From positions 1 to 6,670 of the forward strand of contig CAIYYW010000397.1 of assembly GCA_903930515.1 (NCBI GenBank): 6,670 bases of DNA. Reading direction: 5' to 3'. Origin of the DNA: an uncultured delta proteobacterium. GTDB lineage: Bacteria; RBG-13-61-14; DRUE01. Made by a program: the position numbers and the translations under genes. Below, piece after piece: positions 1 to 6,111 of this stretch. The notes beneath the pieces are model-generated. The model was not told the origin of the DNA. It did not search any database and was given only the letters and a program-made list of their open reading frames with translations. Numbering within the stretch: the stretch's first letter is position 1; every line of letters starts with the position of its first letter.

Positions 1-760
1 AAGATCCTTCTTGGTTCCGGTATAAATAAATTTCATTTTCAGTTGGGTAGCGCTCAATCTGGAAGTCCTCAAGCAAAATGGAGAAATCCAGCGGATGAAT
101 ATTTTCGGTCCTGGCCCCCAGCCTGGTTTCAATGACAGCTCCTGCGCTCTCGCCGATATGGAGGTCCATCATTCCCCGGAACCCGAACCAGTATCCGATG
201 AACCCGCCGATCAGGATGATCACGATTCCGAAATGGGCGAGTAGATTTCCCCATTCTGGAAAACGCCAGGACCTCCGCTTGATCACCACCAGACTCAGGC
301 TGATCATTAGCAGGATTAAAAATCCCCCGAACCAGATGGTATGAAAAGGATCGTTCAGACCCGATAGATAAATCAACTTGGCCAACCCCTGTCCGGATGA
401 TCCTTCAAGGACTTCCCGCGAATCGGTCCGGGCGGTCAAAGTGCCGAGCGCCGTAAATCCCAAAAGCCAGGACAGAATAGCAACCGCAAACTGCCTGGAA
501 GTTAAGGTTTGATAGAGACGGGTCCGGATTTTGAAAAGCGCCAAGCAGATGATGACGGGAATTATAACAATGATTCCCCGGCCAATAATGGATTTGATTA
601 GACCTGGGAATTTATCTGATAAAAAAAGCCGGTCAATAATCAGGAGGACCATCCAGAGGGACAATAACCAATAGGCGCACTCGGAAACCGTGATCTTGCC
701 GGTTGTTTTTTTCTGGATCCTCTCTTTTTCCTCTGAGCCTTTATCCCCTTCTTGATTCAT
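1..760 (-). CDS. resB: ResB-type cytochrome c biogenesis protein (System II), C-terminus outside window
   Basis: This frame is open from the ATG at 760 to the window edge, giving 253 residues of an unfinished protein. ResB (Ccs1) is the membrane partner of CcsA/ResC in System II; together they move heme across the inner membrane and attach it to CXXCH apocytochromes. Hydrophobic segments lie at about residues 29-47, 60-78, 91-110, 140-160 and 175-193. The ResB signatures are the SRQFAVAILSWLLG helix, the DPFHTIWF entry to the next helix, and the LLAHFGIVIILIGGFIG helix followed by a GFRG turn and the start of the large periplasmic domain. The first two hydrophobic segments form an N-terminal addition before the usual ResB core. 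A G-rich Shine-Dalgarno (773-780) lies 12 nt upstream. The gene starts 89 bp after the porin stop on the same strand with no obvious terminator between, so it is probably in the same operon. That fits a neighbour encoding a two-heme protein that needs heme attachment. The family is fairly certain; a ccsA/resC gene probably follows outside the window. Confidence 0.85.
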   Translation of the reverse strand, partial: MNQEGDKGSEEKERIQKKTTGKITVSECAYWLLSLWMVLLIIDRLFLSDKFPGLIKSIIGRGIIVIIPVIICLALFKIRTRLYQTLTSRQFAVAILSWLLGFTALGTLTARTDSREVLEGSSGQGLAKLIYLSGLNDPFHTIWFGGFLILLMISLSLVVIKRRSWRFPEWGNLLAHFGIVIILIGGFIGYWFGFRGMMDLHIGESAGAVIETRLGARTENIHPLDFSILLEDFQIERYPTENEIYLYRNQEGS

Positions 761-849: not shown

Positions 850-1998
850 TCAAAGTAATACCTCTATGTTCAGAAAAACGATATTGTCATTCAGGTCTTT
901 TTCAAAGGCGATGACCGTGGTTTTGGTCAGATAGTCCAGTTGCAGCCGCATCTGGGGAATCGGCTTCCAGTTGACCCCGTAGGTCCAGTGGTCCTCGTGA
1001 CTGGGTTCCCCGCTCTCGTTTGTTTCCCATCGGTAGGTGTCAAAACGCGCGGCCAATTCCAGTCGGTCGTTGAAAAAGCCTTGGATCACCCTTGTTTCCC
1101 AGCCCTCATATTGATAGTCCTTCTTGTCCAGCGTGAGCCAGTCATCAGCAATTACGCCTTCTCCATACATACCGACGGCGCGGAGCCCCCAGGGCGTTTT
1201 GATGGTCAGGTCGGTTGACCAACTGGTCCGGTCCAGGTCGAGCACGGTTGCCCGGTCGCGGAAGAGCATGTTGTGGTGGACATTGTAATCGTAATGCCCG
1301 CCAAGCTTGATCCATTCCAGGGGCGCGAGTTCCAGCCGAGCGCCATAAAGATAATCGCCGAAATTATTGCTGACCATAAAACCCGGGGACTCTGCGTTGC
1401 CGATGCTAAAATTCGCCCCCAAACCATTTCCCACCATAACAAAATATTTAATCACATCCCACTTCTGTCCGGCGTCCCACGATCCCTGGAACCCGATCCC
1501 GACATCCCGCAAATGGGCATCCAGCCCTGTGAGCGGGCCCTCATAGGTCGAGGTGGCCAGACTGTAATTGACCACCTTTTGGGAAAAAACGGTCCGGGTG
1601 ATGAAATCCAGGCTGTATTCATCAGTCAGAACTTCATAAGTGGAAGGGATCTTCATCTGGCCGACATAGAGATTGAAAAACGGGACCGGCCGGTATGAAA
1701 TCCAGGCGTCCAGCAGGTTCACCTGCTGGCTGAACTCGGCCTGGACTTTGGCATACAAATTATATTGCGGCGCCGATGGGAGCAGGCTGATCCTCGCCCG
1801 CTTGAGGTTAAAACCGGAGGCCTCCCGGGCCGCGTCGTCCTCGGTTCGGATTTGCATAATCCCGTTTTCGTTCTGCTCCTGGATTACCCACCAGAAGCTG
1901 GCATCGGTTATGATTTCCAGGTCCGCCCGGGCCGCGCCGGCAAGAAAAGCTCCGCCCAATATAATTAAACCGGCAAGAAAGCCTTGCAACTTTTTCAT
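850..1998 (-). CDS. Outer-membrane porin, phosphate-selective porin (OprO/OprP-like) family
   Basis: This 382-residue protein is probably an outer-membrane beta-barrel channel. It has a Sec signal peptide (MKK, hydrophobic residues 7-22, cleavage likely after Ala25 in AARA). The mature part begins with a short acidic stretch and then strands typical of phosphate-selective-type porins: FNLKRARISL (63-72), a YAKVQAEF strand (82-89), LLDAWISYRP (95-104) and NLYVGQMKIP (109-118), followed by alternating polar/aromatic strands to the end. The last residues form a strand but end in Leu-Leu rather than the usual aromatic residue. The ATG overlaps the stop of the upstream diheme gene (ATGA, 1995-1998), and the Shine-Dalgarno is weak (a GGG cluster about 10 nt upstream), so translation is probably coupled. 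The substrate cannot be read from sequence; phosphate selectivity should not be assumed. Beside a heme protein it could instead be the barrel of an envelope electron-transfer unit. Confidence 0.8.
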   Translation of the reverse strand: MKKLQGFLAGLIILGGAFLAGAARADLEIITDASFWWVIQEQNENGIMQIRTEDDAAREASGFNLKRARISLLPSAPQYNLYAKVQAEFSQQVNLLDAWISYRPVPFFNLYVGQMKIPSTYEVLTDEYSLDFITRTVFSQKVVNYSLATSTYEGPLTGLDAHLRDVGIGFQGSWDAGQKWDVIKYFVMVGNGLGANFSIGNAESPGFMVSNNFGDYLYGARLELAPLEWIKLGGHYDYNVHHNMLFRDRATVLDLDRTSWSTDLTIKTPWGLRAVGMYGEGVIADDWLTLDKKDYQYEGWETRVIQGFFNDRLELAARFDTYRWETNESGEPSHEDHWTYGVNWKPIPQMRLQLDYLTKTTVIAFEKDLNDNIVFLNIEVLL

Positions 1999-3290
1999 GG
2001 ATTGATGCCCTGCCCGTAGATAATCAACTCTTTAGCGTCAATATAAGCCCAACCGCCGTTCTGGTAGTCAAACTGCTCATATCCCTCGGGCATGGGATTG
2101 ATCCGGATGGCGATCACCCCTTTAACCATGGCGCCGGCATTATGGTCCTTAGAGCCGAGGTAATCATAGCTGTCCCCGCACGCGGTGGGAGAATATGACA
2201 AGCCTCGGTCCGGTGTTCCGGGCGTAGTCTGCGGGACAATGATCCGGTAGGGTCCTTCCCCGGCGATCCGGTTATTGGCCGAGTCCAGATATGACGGTTC
2301 CATCCGCGCCCCATCCCTTTGATAGGCCAAAATCAGCCACTGATCGGGCAGGCTGGCGCCCCATCCCAGCCCGGTGGTGTATTGGCTGGGGGGATACTCT
2401 ACGAACCCGCAGTCCGGCCCCAGGGTTCCCGTATTAAGTCCGGGATAGAAGAGTCCGTCCGGGAATTTGTTATTGATCTGATCCAAAGTGAAGTCCTTGG
2501 TGAAGCCGTCCGGGGCGATCACGGTGATGCCGGTGACGGTAGTGCCCGGAGCCAGATTGACTCCGATGGCAGTAAGCAATTTTTGAATTTTTACGCCCTT
2601 GTAATAAGCATACTCGTCGTACGGCTGCTTGTTGGCGTTGCTGAGTTGAAGATGAGCGGAGGAGGCCAGGCTTCTGATCTTCTTCCAGTGCAGGACCTTG
2701 ACGGGAGCCCAAGGCTGGCCGGGCTTGCTATTGGGGTCGCCCGGATAGCGCAGGGCTTTGATCTCCTTCACATTGGTGTAAGTGTCGCCGTCGCTGTCCG
2801 TGCCCGCGATGTTCCGGACCGCGCTCTTGCTCCGGCCGGCATCGTCATAATCCTTGCCATAGGAATTAAGCGTGGCCGGGATGCTGGTCGGGCCGTCCGT
2901 GATATTGGGGTCCGGATGCACATAGAGGTGGCAATAATCGCAGGCGTTCTTGTAGAGCAGCGGACCGGTCTTGGGAGTGACATTGCCCTGATAATGACAG
3001 GTCTGGCAATCATCCAGACGCGTCCCCACCTTGCCCGGATAGACCGAGACAAAATTATTGATATCAAACTTGTCCGCATGGTGCCCGTTATATGACCGCG
3101 AGGTCACCCCACTTGAACTAATTCCCATCCCGTTTCCGGCCGGGGCCTGCAGACTTGAGTTGTCCGAGTGCCCGGCGCTGCCGGGACCGCCGCAGAACTC
3201 CAGGGTGAAGACCAGGAACCCGGCCAGTATTAACAACGGAAATAACTTCCAAACCCTTTTTGCCGATGGTTTCAGATTTTTCTCTTTCAT
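1995..3290 (-). CDS. GEGP-motif diheme c-type cytochrome with sulfite-oxidase-like domain
   Basis: The chosen start is the ATG at 3290, preceded by a GGAGGA Shine-Dalgarno, giving 431 residues; the frame extends 29 codons upstream without such a signal. A hydrophobic segment at 15-30 exports or anchors the protein. Cys33 follows it, but the preceding LEF is not a standard lipobox. Two heme sites are visible, CQTCH (95-99) and CDYCH (117-121), with a His pair at 70-71 as possible ligands. A calcium-binding-like DSDGDTYTN (165-173) and PGDPNSKP follow. Residues about 195-360 resemble the oxidoreductase molybdopterin-binding (SUOX-like) fold: YKGVKIQKLLTAIGV, a VIAPDGF strand, then LAYQRDG and GEGPYRIIVP (344-353). 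The Moco-ligating cysteine expected before the KGV strand is not seen; the only cysteines nearby are 294 and 371. The architecture matches what I recall as 'GEGP motif-containing diheme protein'. It lies 55 nt after the Kelch gene and overlaps the porin start. Redox partner and substrate are unknown. Confidence 0.8.
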   Translation of the reverse strand: MKEKNLKPSAKRVWKLFPLLILAGFLVFTLEFCGGPGSAGHSDNSSLQAPAGNGMGISSSGVTSRSYNGHHADKFDINNFVSVYPGKVGTRLDDCQTCHYQGNVTPKTGPLLYKNACDYCHLYVHPDPNITDGPTSIPATLNSYGKDYDDAGRSKSAVRNIAGTDSDGDTYTNVKEIKALRYPGDPNSKPGQPWAPVKVLHWKKIRSLASSAHLQLSNANKQPYDEYAYYKGVKIQKLLTAIGVNLAPGTTVTGITVIAPDGFTKDFTLDQINNKFPDGLFYPGLNTGTLGPDCGFVEYPPSQYTTGLGWGASLPDQWLILAYQRDGARMEPSYLDSANNRIAGEGPYRIIVPQTTPGTPDRGLSYSPTACGDSYDYLGSKDHNAGAMVKGVIAIRINPMPEGYEQFDYQNGGWAYIDAKELIIYGQGINP

Positions 3291-3345: not shown

Positions 3346-4776
3346 TCACGGCCAATATCTTCCGCCCGACCGGTCATCCGCGTCTCCCCAGATGATCATC
3401 ACGCCGTCACCATCGTCCCAGACCGCCGAGTGGCTGTATCTTGCGGATGGGGCCTTGGACAGCGAGGTGCGAGTCCAACTGTCAAGAGCCGGATCGTATT
3501 TACCGCCGGAGTTCCGCGCCGCAGGGGTCCTGTCCATCCCGCCCCAGACGATCATTTGGGTCCCGGTCCAGACTGAGGTTGCGTATTTCTTTGCCGAAGG
3601 AGCATTGACCGCGGAGATCGCGGTCCAGGAATCGCCCGCGAGATTGTATTTGCCGCCGGAGTTCAAGAGGGTGGTCCCGTTATCGCCGCCCCAGACGACC
3701 ATGTCGGTTCCGGTCCAAACCGCGGCGCTATAGCGCCTGGCTTCGGGAGCGTTGTCGGTTGCGATCGCAGTCCAGACATCGCCGGACGGATCGTATTTGC
3801 CGCCGTCATTCAAATGGTTGGCGCCATCAAATCCTCCCCAGACCAGCATGGCCGCTCCGGTCCAGACGGCGCTGTAGTCAGAGCGCATAATTGGAGCATT
3901 GGTGGTAGTGGTCGCGGTCCAGAGGTCCGAACTCGGATTGTATTTCCCGCCGGTGTTGGTGATGCCTTTGCTGGTAACCCCGCCCCAGATTATCATCTCG
4001 GTATCGTCCCAGATCGCCGAGAAGTATGACCTGCTGGAGGGACTGTTGGCGGTGGACATTGCGGACCAGGAATTGGTTGACAGGTTATATCTGCCGCCGC
4101 TCGCGACCTTGCTGTAAGGCACGCCGCCCCAGATGATTGCCTCGGAACCGGTCCAGACCATGGCGAATTGATGTCTTCCCGCCGGGGCGTTGGCGGTTTC
4201 AATCGCAGTCCAGGTGTCGGTCACTGGATCGTAGACGCCGCCGGTATTGGCTTCATACCCGCCATAATTTTCCATCCCGCCCCACACCACCATTTTGGTG
4301 TCCGCCCATACCGCGCCTTGCCGGGTCCGGGCCGAAGGCGCGTTCTTGGCATCGGTGACCAGCCACACATCCGAGATGTTCCAGGTATAAACGGCCGGGG
4401 TCGGGTCAGCATTGCCCGCGGAGTCCATGCCCTTGACCTGGAAGGTGTGGCTGCCGCCCCTCAGGTTTTTATAAACCTTCGGCGAAGTGCAGGCCTTCCA
4501 GCTCGCGCTGTCCATCGCGCATTTGTAAGCGCAGGCCCCTGCCGAGCAGGAGAAACCTAACTTGGCAATGGTGGAATGGTCCTCTTCCGCCGGCCTCATC
4601 GTTTTGCTGATCCGGGTTTGGACTCCACCCGAGGCATAGCTCTTTGCCAGGATATTATCCTGACCGGTCAACTCCAAACCTTGCCCGTCATCCGCGCTGC
4701 CGCAACCGGAAAGCGCCAAGGCCAGGACCAGCGACAAACCCGCTCCCAAAATCAAACCCCGTTTTCTCCCTTTCAT
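3346..4776 (-). CDS. Kelch-type seven-bladed beta-propeller lipoprotein
   Basis: The start is the ATG at 4776, behind an AGGAGGAGG Shine-Dalgarno, giving 476 residues; the 86 extra upstream codons of the frame run through the RNA leader and are rejected. The N-terminus is a lipoprotein signal: MKGRKRG, a hydrophobic stretch, and the lipobox LSGC with Cys25 as lipidation site. Residues about 75-134 form a small four-Cys domain (Cys77, 82, 86, 96) with CTSPK, GGSHTFQVK and AGNADPTPAVYTW, an Ig/fibronectin-like type common in secreted bacterial proteins. From 137 onward there are seven Kelch-like repeats of about 49 residues, each with a 'VWTGT-MIVWGG' strand, 'GGKYDP', 'W' and 'NAPSAR'. The protein is probably tethered to the outer membrane as a binding or scaffold domain; no catalytic motif is visible. 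It is the first gene after the riboswitch leader and heads the cluster with the diheme protein, porin and ResB. The partner is unknown. Confidence 0.85.
   Translation of the reverse strand: MKGRKRGLILGAGLSLVLALALSGCGSADDGQGLELTGQDNILAKSYASGGVQTRISKTMRPAEEDHSTIAKLGFSCSAGACAYKCAMDSASWKACTSPKVYKNLRGGSHTFQVKGMDSAGNADPTPAVYTWNISDVWLVTDAKNAPSARTRQGAVWADTKMVVWGGMENYGGYEANTGGVYDPVTDTWTAIETANAPAGRHQFAMVWTGSEAIIWGGVPYSKVASGGRYNLSTNSWSAMSTANSPSSRSYFSAIWDDTEMIIWGGVTSKGITNTGGKYNPSSDLWTATTTTNAPIMRSDYSAVWTGAAMLVWGGFDGANHLNDGGKYDPSGDVWTAIATDNAPEARRYSAAVWTGTDMVVWGGDNGTTLLNSGGKYNLAGDSWTAISAVNAPSAKKYATSVWTGTQMIVWGGMDRTPAARNSGGKYDPALDSWTRTSLSKAPSARYSHSAVWDDGDGVMIIWGDADDRSGGRYWP
3349..4368 (-). repeat. Seven in-gene Kelch repeats, period about 147 bp
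   Basis: Residues 137-476 of the lipoprotein contain seven copies of one unit, about 147 bp each at DNA level. WGG triplets fall at residues 165, 216, 264, 313, 362 and 411, with a seventh WGD at 463. The spacing is near constant (51, 48, 49, 49, 49, 52). The last unit stops after GGRYWP and lacks the closing 'D-W-T' strand, while an orphan strand, SDVWLVTDAKNAPSAR, precedes the first unit. This is the usual 'velcro' closure that completes a seven-bladed ring. The units are close to each other but not identical, which suggests internal duplication. They are coding repeats, not a mobile or CRISPR-type array. Confidence 0.85.
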
Positions 4777-4805: not shown

Positions 4806-4842
4806 AAAAAAAATCGCCGGTCTCCGCGCCTGGAAACCGGCG
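4806..4842 (-). terminator. Second terminator-like hairpin before the Kelch gene
   Basis: On the minus strand a hairpin with arms CGCCGGT (4815-4821) and ACCGGCG (4836-4842) continues inward by three pairs after one mismatch, leaving a 6-nt loop. It is followed by eight consecutive U residues (4806-4813). This is a textbook intrinsic terminator, placed only about 30 nt before the Kelch ATG, so it must be read through for the operon to be expressed. It is the second such hairpin in the leader. Function is inferred from structure only. Confidence 0.6.
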
Positions 4843-4895
4843 AGTAAAATTCTCAGGATTGATCCTGGCCTGAGATACTCCCAAACCGGAGCCGG
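4837..4895 (-). promoter_or_regulatory. Alternative fold competing with the second terminator
   Basis: In the minus-strand RNA, UCUCAGG (4869-4875) pairs with CCUGAGA (4851-4857), and the adjoining GAGUA (4876-4880) pairs with UACUC (4842-4846). CCGGC (4891-4895) can extend the fold onto GCCGG (4837-4841). The last pairing uses bases of the 5' arm of the hairpin at 4806-4842, so the two structures exclude each other. This looks like an antiterminator for a second attenuation step. I do not recognise a known ligand-binding class here. Confidence 0.4.
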
Positions 4896-4896
4896 A

Positions 4897-4934
4897 ATAA
4901 AAAAGCCGACCCCGTGCTAATCGGTGGTCGGCTT
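4897..4934 (-). terminator. Intrinsic terminator, expression platform of the Moco-type riboswitch
   Basis: The arms AAGCCGACC (4926-4934) and GGTCGGCTT (4903-4911) are perfect 9-bp complements on the minus strand, followed by a U tract (4899-4904). It begins 15 nt after the 3' end of aptamer helix P1. The loop and first bases of the 3' arm spell AGCACGGG (4911-4918), a perfect complement of CCCGUGCU in the aptamer (4961-4968). Pairing these two would break both the terminator and the aptamer's 3' conserved segment. The arrangement predicts termination when the aptamer is folded (ligand bound) and read-through when it is not. Confidence 0.75.
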
Positions 4935-4948
4935 GAGTTCCAGCCCTT

Positions 4949-5045
4949 ATCTCCTTTCCAAGCACGGGAGGCCCGGCGGTTTCCCGCCAGACCCTATCGG
5001 CCTTGCGCCATCGGCCAAAGCCCTTAGGCCGCAAGGCTCGGAGAT
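4949..5045 (-). promoter_or_regulatory. Moco/Tuco-type riboswitch aptamer (molybdenum or tungsten cofactor)
   Basis: The 97-nt RNA is closed by P1, AUCUCC (5040-5045) with GGAGAU (4949-4954). Inside are the sequence blocks I recall from the E. coli moaA leader: GGCUUUGGCC (5013-5022), GCCUCCCGU (4964-4972) and UGGAAAGG (4953-4960). A 10-bp hairpin with a GAAA tetraloop (4970-4993) takes the place of the E. coli hairpin that ends in CUUCGCC. GCCUUGCG (5030-5037) pairs with CGCAAGGC (5000-5007). CCUAAG (5023-5028) with GAUGG (5008-5012) resembles the 11-nt GNRA-tetraloop receptor, so tetraloop docking is likely. Family knowledge: this class (MOCO RNA motif) senses molybdenum cofactor, and variants lacking helix P3 were proposed to sense the tungsten form. 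Only a short P3 candidate is visible, so the metal is open. The element starts at the predicted transcription start. What it controls here is a Kelch/cytochrome/porin operon, not cofactor synthesis. Confidence 0.82.
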
Positions 5046-5052
5046 TTATCTA

Positions 5053-5080
5053 ATTTTAGCAAAAGATTTAATATTGTCAA
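5053..5080 (-). promoter_or_regulatory. Sigma70-type promoter for the Kelch-diheme-porin operon
   Basis: On the minus strand a perfect TTGACA (5075-5080) is followed after 16 nt by TAAAAT (5053-5058), in an AT-rich stretch between the SDR stop and the leader. The predicted start, near 5046, falls on the first base of riboswitch helix P1, so promoter and aptamer support each other. Confidence 0.8.
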
Positions 5081-5118: not shown

Positions 5119-5949
5119 TTATTTCTCTCTTGCCTTGAGCAGTTTTTTTGTAATGACAAGCGAGATTTTTTGGAAGGATTTGCTTAGCAGATGGCTCATC
5201 GGCAACAGCCGCGCGCCCAAATTGCCGCTCACCGTGCAGAGAACTTCCTCTTTCCGCTTCTCGCAGGCCCGCGCGATTTTCTCCGCGATTTTTTCCGGAG
5301 CGTCCCCTCCCATTTTCCAGGCCAGGTCCGGAGGCACATTGTAATCCGGGCTGAGGATCTTGGCCTGGAATTTGGTCTTGACAAAATTCGGGTAGATGCA
5401 GATCAGATCAATATTGTGCTCTTTCAGCTCCAATCTTGCGCTGTCCGCGAATCCCCACAAGGCGAACTTGCTCGCGCAATACGCCGAATTGAGCGGCATT
5501 GCGATCCGGCCGGAGAGGGAATTGATGATAATGAACTGGCCATAGCCCTGTTTTTTGAAATAAGGGAGCGCGGCATAGAACCCGTTCAGGACTCCGAAAA
5601 AATTCACCTCAAATTGCTGATGCCATAATTCCAGCGGAATATTCGCGGCCTCGCCCAGCACCCCGAACCCGGCCCCCAAAACCGCAACATTCAACCGGCC
5701 GGTCAGCCCCCAGGCCCGGTCCATCAACGCCCTCATCTCTTCCGGACGGGTAACATCACCCGGCACAACATACGCTTCCGCGCCAAAGGCAAGCGTCGTC
5801 TCCGCGGCCTGATTGAGCAAATCCAGGTTCCTTCCGCTCAGCACCAGCTTAGACCCCCGCCGTCCGAAAGCGACCGCGGCTGCCGCCCCGATCCCCCCGC
5901 TTGCCCCGGTGATCACCACGGTTTTTCCCTTCAGATCTACTTTGCTCAT
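5119..5949 (-). CDS. Short-chain dehydrogenase/reductase (SDR), classical type
   Basis: This 276-residue NAD(P)H-dependent oxidoreductase has a Rossmann fold; its substrate cannot be told from sequence. Visible motifs are the nucleotide-binding TGASGGIG (14-21), SGRN (38-41, Arg40 favouring NADP(H)), Asp65 for adenine, catalytic Asn116, Ser144 in INSLSG, and Tyr157/Lys161 in YCASK. The usual NNAG reads LGAG at 91-94, a departure from the classical motif. The C-terminal 60 residues, from about GDAPEKIAEKIARACEKRK on, resemble the tail of DltE/YqjQ-like or sterol-type SDRs with a basic amphipathic end that might touch the membrane. The start at 5949 has an AGGGG Shine-Dalgarno five bases upstream; a frame extension of 54 codons (from a TTG) lacks SDR character. 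It stops 38 bp before the riboswitch promoter on the same strand and is probably a separate unit, so its link to the operon is doubtful. Confidence 0.9.
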   Translation of the reverse strand: MSKVDLKGKTVVITGASGGIGAAAAVAFGRRGSKLVLSGRNLDLLNQAAETTLAFGAEAYVVPGDVTRPEEMRALMDRAWGLTGRLNVAVLGAGFGVLGEAANIPLELWHQQFEVNFFGVLNGFYAALPYFKKQGYGQFIIINSLSGRIAMPLNSAYCASKFALWGFADSARLELKEHNIDLICIYPNFVKTKFQAKILSPDYNVPPDLAWKMGGDAPEKIAEKIARACEKRKEEVLCTVSGNLGARLLPMSHLLSKSFQKISLVITKKLLKAREK

Positions 5950-6081
5950 TTCATCCCCTGATCGTTTCCTTTTTATACTCTTGATAAATTGCAAAAAATG
6001 TTTCAAAGCCAACAACTCGCAGGCGCCCCTGGAAACCTTCAGCCACAAAGCCCCGCCAGGCATCACCAGCTTGCCCGTCCC

Positions 6082-6111
6082 ATTATAAATCCTCCGCCGC
6101 ACCGCGCGCAA
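6082..6111 (-). promoter_or_regulatory. Candidate promoter for the SDR gene (weak)
   Basis: On the minus strand a perfect TATAAT (6082-6087) is preceded 18 nt upstream by TTGCGC (6106-6111). The -35 box is poor and the transcript leader would be about 125 nt. An alternative lies further up: TTGACC (6162-6167) with AATATT (6140-6145), 16 nt apart. Only one, or neither, may be used. Confidence 0.3.

Follow-up and report, generated by a model that had tools for sequence, protein, structure and literature searches.

A P3-lacking Moco/Tuco riboswitch upstream of a Kelch–GEGP diheme–porin operon, and a possible link to metal or cofactor entry through the outer membrane

Introduction

What does a cofactor-sensing riboswitch control when the genes behind it encode a propeller lipoprotein, a diheme protein, a porin and ResB? 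This question is raised by the stretch of DNA analysed here (6,670 nucleotides, hereafter the window). The genes published as targets of the Moco RNA motif (RF01055) serve Mo/W transport or cofactor synthesis, or encode Mo/W enzymes (Regulski et al. 2008, PMC2408646), whereas in the window the order is Kelch-GEGP-porin. A porin, outer-membrane or cytochrome target is not mentioned in the main text of that paper. The original prediction, made from the sequence alone, proposed that the level of the cofactor determines the choice of envelope redox chain.

Results

Identity and structure of the aptamer

4935–5055, minus strand: Moco/Tuco riboswitch aptamer (RF01055), P3-lacking, from cmscan and covariation

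The riboswitch is a genuine member of the Moco/Tuco class. The covariance scan that the original prediction had called for gave a significant, full-length and untruncated match to RF01055 (Molybdenum) at 5055–4935 of the minus strand, with 91.3 bits against a gathering cut-off of 36 bits (E 4.7e-22). All other Rfam matches in the window were below threshold and chance-like. P1 is formed by 5045–5040 and 4954–4949, and the interval proposed beforehand, 4949–5045, is exactly the span from P1 to P1. The predicted GAAA tetraloop and CCUAAG/GAUGG receptor were both found in the aptamer. The RNA agrees with the published motif in sequence, in the P1-P2-P4-P5 architecture, in the tetraloop and its receptor, in a terminator-type platform and in belonging to a P3-lacking subclass (PMC2408646).

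Covariation was examined in 11 related aptamers, taken from the genome of the window, from a congener, from the same order and from other genomes. The cells of P1, P2 and P4 were paired in 90.9% of cases, against 71% in shuffles, and pairing fell to 45–48% when one partner was slid by one column. Double changes occurred in 14 of the 23 pairs. The covariation score of 0.584 (0.213 in shuffles) was reached by none of 500 shuffles. Most of this signal came from P2 and P4; P1 was nearly invariant, as expected since this stem lies close to the conserved core.

In the covariance alignment P3 is missing, and P2 and P4 are joined by 3 bases. P3-lacking RNAs were tied to tungsten-cofactor (Tuco) metabolism by Regulski et al. 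2008 (PMC2408646), and the absence of P3 therefore points to a Tuco-type RNA with tungsten cofactor as its putative ligand. In the same genome tupABC-type genes stand behind a second RF01055, their assignment to tungstate resting on sequence type and context.

Promoter and expression platform

5053–5080, minus strand: sigma-70-like promoter from a consensus scan, with −35 TTGACA at 5080–5075 and −10 TAAAAT at 5058–5053
4931–4963, minus strand: candidate antiterminator, GCUUGG (4963–4958) of the conserved UUGGAAAGG block with UCAAGC (4936–4931), overlapping the 5' arm of the terminator
4899–4934, minus strand: intrinsic terminator 1 (T1), AAGCCGACC/GGTCGGCTT followed by a T run
4806–4843, minus strand: intrinsic terminator 2 (T2), TCGCCGGTTTCC/GGAGACCGGCGA plus T8

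The promoter (TTGACA-16-TAAAAT) matches the consensus at 11 of 12 positions and would place the transcription start at about 5046, just before P1. An SDR-family dehydrogenase gene (5119–6111, minus strand) ends just 5' of this promoter on the same strand, with no evident terminator, and read-through from it into the leader is possible.

T1 starts directly beside P1, where the expression platform of RF01055 is expected, and is followed by T2, a serial arrangement that the original prediction had not listed. In all five leaders examined from the order of the window a terminator lies directly 3' of the aptamer. The leader of the congener (L032, 2083–2172) also has two serial terminators, the first of which has a stem nearly identical to that of T2 in the window. 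Apparently, the partner terminator was gained or lost on different sides of a shared stem in the two species.

Pairing between the aptamer and the terminator varied in strength. It was longest in three leaders from the genus, where CUUGGAAAGG, the conserved strand of the aptamer, could pair with the 5' arm of the terminator over 9 bp (p 0.001–0.003 each). The corresponding pairing of the conserved block was 6–7 bp long in the window and in G002:C41, with p 0.12 for the 6 bp of the window and 0.16 for the latter. Over the five leaders of the order the combined p was 2e-6. Among 33 leaders from many phyla support was modest (5/33 at p<0.05, Fisher 6e-4), and the antiterminator pairing therefore belongs to some leaders rather than to the class as such. 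From the pairing of CUUGGAAAGG with the terminator an OFF switch is predicted, in which ligand binding frees the terminator. The class as a whole was described as repressing (Regulski et al. 2008, PMC2408646).

The operon and its conservation

3346–4776, minus strand: Kelch-propeller lipoprotein of 476 aa with a ribosome site at its start and a signal peptide carrying the lipobox LSGC (Pfam Kelch 7.6e-38; Kelch matches in the PDB)
1995–3290, minus strand: GEGP motif-containing diheme protein, 431 aa, probable lipoprotein, two CXXCH (NF041762)
850–1998, minus strand: Porin_O_P outer-membrane porin (PF07396, 3.9e-10, 40 bits against a cut-off of 20.9)
2–760, minus strand: resB, N-terminal half, cut by the contig end (PF05140; ResB 2.2e-20)

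The propeller lipoprotein, diheme protein, porin and ResB had all been named in this order from the sequence, and each was recovered; none is a gene of cofactor synthesis. The start of the porin overlaps the stop of the GEGP gene by 4 bases, and this porin is the sole Porin_O_P found in the genome of the window. No evident terminator lies in the interval between porin and resB, and co-transcription of the two is plausible.

The same leader was found, as the original prediction had suggested looking for, before a GEGP operon in a second genome. The congener contig CAIUDS010000198.1 (a MAG from Alinen lake sediment) carries riboswitch-Kelch-GEGP-porin in the same order, followed by convergent genes. 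The GEGP proteins of the two species are 83% identical, and their aptamers show compensatory changes. The only resB match of the congener is on another contig, among cytochrome genes, and is absent from the riboswitch operon; the conserved unit is therefore riboswitch-Kelch-GEGP-porin. This exact order was found in only two genomes. In another genome (G273) the GEGP gene and the only RF01055 are on two different contigs, and within the order and phylum of G273 a GEGP protein was found in G273 itself only. Plasmids and viral contigs gave no GEGP matches.

A second riboswitch on a probably adjoining contig

The second RF01055 of the genome, on contig C324, heads tupA-tupB-tupC-moeA-moaC-MOSC-moaA-mogA. 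C324 begins inside resB, which is followed by resC. A search of the genome with the ResB profile gave one N-terminal half (the window, profile positions 3–221), one C-terminal half (C324, profile positions 224–451) and, beyond these, one non-significant match. The window contig (C397) and C324 therefore most likely adjoin through a split resB, with the C-terminal half and resC on C324; no sequence overlap was found between their ends. If they adjoin, the Kelch operon would lie directly upstream of a tungstate transport and cofactor synthesis operon, each under its own switch. The original prediction had set the operon apart from cofactor synthesis genes. This holds for the first genes, which are not synthesis genes, but the target is not remote from the cofactor: the GEGP protein has a domain of sulfite-oxidase/PruR type, as set out below, and the second RF01055 heads tungstate transport and cofactor synthesis genes on the apparently adjoining contig.

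A sulfite-oxidase-type domain in the GEGP diheme protein

2091–2705, minus strand: C-terminal part of the GEGP protein, sulfite-oxidase-fold (PruR-like) domain with the GEGP motif, without the Mo-ligand cysteine

The GEGP protein matched NF041762 with 437.6 bits (cut-off 300), and direct sequence searches of Pfam, PF00174 included, and of the PDB returned nothing significant. The relation to other folds came through a bridge protein of 270 residues from another genome (L025), which matched the GEGP family at 1.2e-11 and, at 5e-19, also PF00174, the molybdopterin domain of sulfite oxidases. When the GEGP profile was compared with sulfite-oxidase-like domains by hhalign, the probability was 96% (E 1.5e-9), and the GEGP motif aligned to the G-x-P-x-R stretch of the sulfite-oxidase fold. 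A structure model of the whole protein from three homologues reached a pLDDT of 32. The AF2 model of the domain had a pTM of 0.64 and a core pLDDT of about 70–87; its alignment included PF00174-like rows, of which the model is not fully independent. The best match of this domain model was PruR (Z 10.9, rmsd 2.6 over 115 residues), followed by sulfite oxidases and sulfite dehydrogenases; sulfite oxidases and PruR matched at Z about 10, and the best 28 structure rows all belonged to PruR or the sulfite oxidase family, with the exception of one integrative model. As judged from these profiles and this model, the C-terminal domain of GEGP is homologous to the sulfite-oxidase/PruR family.

A normal Mo/W active site is unlikely, since none of the three GEGP sequences has a conserved cysteine outside CXXCH. 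The stretch of PF00174 with the Mo-ligand cysteine is left unmatched by GEGP. PruR, a periplasmic protein which also lacks this cysteine, binds reduced pterins and was reported as unlikely to hold Moco (PMC13259868). It shares with the GEGP domain the fold, the missing ligand and the extracytoplasmic location. In contrast to PruR, GEGP has two additional heme sites and insertions, and no DcpA partner here; pterin binding is a property of PruR and only putative in GEGP. A possible task of the GEGP diheme protein is the binding of a pterin or metal complex, or the adjustment of its redox state.

The bridge protein (L025:642–1454; G029:C71) is a small exported protein in its own right, with two tandem cysteine-less PF00174 domains, and links the GEGP family with sulfite oxidases.

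Outer-membrane genes behind RF01055 in other genomes

In a sweep of 386 genomes RF01055 was above cut-off in 76, and the downstream DNA was read at 106 loci, window included. In agreement with the published targets, most of them stand before genes for tup/mod transporters or aldehyde ferredoxin oxidoreductases, or before moaA or moeA. At 16 of the 106 an outer-membrane gene was found downstream, eight times a Porin_O_P and eight times a TonB-dependent receptor. All of these share the strand of the riboswitch, and the opposite strand had none; the profiles behind this count took their seeds from loci that had first been spotted on the strand of the riboswitch. The number of porins expected by chance is well below one locus, by a rough estimate rather than a computation.

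Several of these loci combine outer-membrane and transport genes. The order behind RF01055 is porin-tupA-tupB in G320, porin-tupA in G310, tupABC-porin in G188, and two tupA-like genes followed by porin-tupB-tupC in G131; in G002, an order-level relative, the riboswitch lies directly before the porin. In seven genomes with PF07396 (1–4 matches each) the best or only match was the riboswitch-linked porin. These genomes were chosen for that link, and the result speaks for specificity and not for frequency. A porin or TonB receptor beside W/Mo transport genes, as a hypothetical uptake system would have, is thus present in relatives, and in the window by way of the inferred contig adjacency. In G082:C46 (L141:487–4213) the riboswitch is followed by a lipoprotein, a TonB receptor and a cysteine-less PF00174 lipoprotein; here too, as in the window, an outer-membrane protein is paired with a sulfite-oxidase-fold protein. 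On the genes read, a predicted outer-membrane protein is the common denominator.

Two further loci (L086:483–3200 and L109:3311–6039) have RF01055 before a 270-aa lipoprotein, unassigned to a family, and a TonB-dependent receptor. The likeness of these lipoproteins (G142, G279) to the sulfite-oxidase fold was faint and non-significant. In G043:C3:345400–351800 (L144) the genes behind RF01055 encode a PEP-CTERM protein and a surface lipoprotein of 1048 aa, and no Mo/W gene was seen in this stretch.

Discussion

By a narrow margin of probability, we read the locus as a P3-lacking Moco/Tuco transcriptional OFF switch on an envelope operon that acquires or handles tungsten or molybdenum. When cofactor is scarce, the aptamer strand CUUGGAAAGG would pair with the 5' arm of the terminator and transcription would proceed. 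Read-through would yield a surface Kelch lipoprotein, a diheme lipoprotein of PruR/sulfite-oxidase fold and an anion-type porin, and probably also ResBC for cytochrome c maturation. With Tuco or Moco plentiful, the bound aptamer would retain the CUUGGAAAGG strand, the terminator would form and the operon would fall silent. The second switch, probably on the adjoining contig, would exert the same control on the tungstate transport and cofactor synthesis genes, so that a single signal would govern entry at the outer membrane, transport across the inner membrane and assembly of the cofactor. End-product sensing that shuts off both entry and synthesis is the simplest account; within it we infer the identity of the ligand, the OFF direction, the substrate of the porin and the roles of the Kelch and GEGP proteins. 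The recurrence of the riboswitch before porins and receptors in several unrelated bacteria suggests control of metal or cofactor entry through the outer membrane. Some points argue against acquisition. The porin may pass something else by diffusion, the Kelch and diheme proteins have no known transport role, the antiterminator of the window itself is weak, and in G273 switch and GEGP gene are on separate contigs. The contig adjacency, moreover, depends on a split resB, and the census on profiles seeded from one strand.

The choice of an envelope electron-transfer chain by the cofactor level, as in the original prediction, would make Kelch, diheme, porin and ResBC a redox module induced or repressed against a respiratory chain with Mo/W enzymes. 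The two CXXCH of GEGP and the resB that follows the porin without an evident terminator fit this view, as does G310, where a propeller gene and a cytochrome with 23 CXXCH come after riboswitch, porin and tupA. We nevertheless consider it unlikely: the feature common across phyla is an outer-membrane porin or TonB receptor, often beside tupABC, usually without a cytochrome and with no need of GEGP or resB; the operon of the congener lacks resB, and a partner oxidase or reductase is not among the genes of the operon. Because of the heme sites and ResBC the redox chain keeps some probability, with less support than acquisition.

About as improbable is an enzyme role of GEGP, as a Mo/W-pterin member of the sulfite oxidase family with built-in hemes, in which case the switch would regulate a cofactor-using enzyme, as is known for the class. 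The kinship of the C-terminal domain to PF00174, SoxC and PruR speaks for it, and P3-less motifs were reported before putative sulfite oxidase genes in S. wolfei (Regulski et al. 2008, PMC2408646). Against it stand the three GEGP sequences without a conserved cysteine outside the heme sites, the unmatched ligand stretch of PF00174 and, as nearest structure, PruR, itself an unlikely holder of Moco. Very unlikely, in our view, is an aptamer which reaches the Kelch gene only, or which was left over from a gene rearrangement, the following genes being no functional unit. The exact order is indeed found in two draft-contig genomes only, but order and leader were kept between two species with compensatory changes in the aptamer, GEGP and porin genes overlap, and porins recur behind RF01055 elsewhere.

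We return to control of acquisition as the preferred reading. Apparently, a known riboswitch class has here a new kind of regulon, unusual and recurring. In the open-access literature we found no prior report of a Moco/Tuco riboswitch before a porin or TonB receptor, none on GEGP, and no role in metal homeostasis for the GEGP diheme family or for ligand-less sulfite-oxidase-fold proteins. Tungstate and molybdate are generally taken to cross the outer membrane by unspecific diffusion. If a cofactor riboswitch governs porins and TonB receptors, there would be dedicated outer-membrane steps and a computable way to find them, as well as a testable role for the GEGP diheme family and sulfite-oxidase-fold proteins without a metal ligand. 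A wider version of this reading is tentative and rather doubtful: in many bacteria Moco/Tuco riboswitches would govern both dedicated channels or receptors of the outer membrane and extracytoplasmic, ligand-less sulfite-oxidase-fold proteins, a module importing tungstate or molybdate complexes or salvaging an external pterin-type cofactor, as BtuB does for vitamin B12.

The cobalamin riboswitch before BtuB, with an example in Caldithrix (PMC5317091), is likewise a cofactor-sensing switch upstream of an outer-membrane uptake protein. It differs in aptamer and ligand, and the window has instead a porin and a PruR-fold diheme protein, with a putative substrate. The family closest to the TonB receptor of G243 is that of the B12 receptors.

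Several aptamers and terminators in series at a single locus are also known from the triple Moco RNAs of S. wolfei and the tandem ones of G. metallireducens (PMC2408646), whereas the window has one aptamer with two serial terminators, the second aptamer being on the probably adjoining contig. A tandem RF01055 (147005 and 147661) was observed in G310:C20:147005–156675 (L173, about 3000–12675), followed by porin, tupA, an NHL-type propeller and the 23-CXXCH cytochrome.
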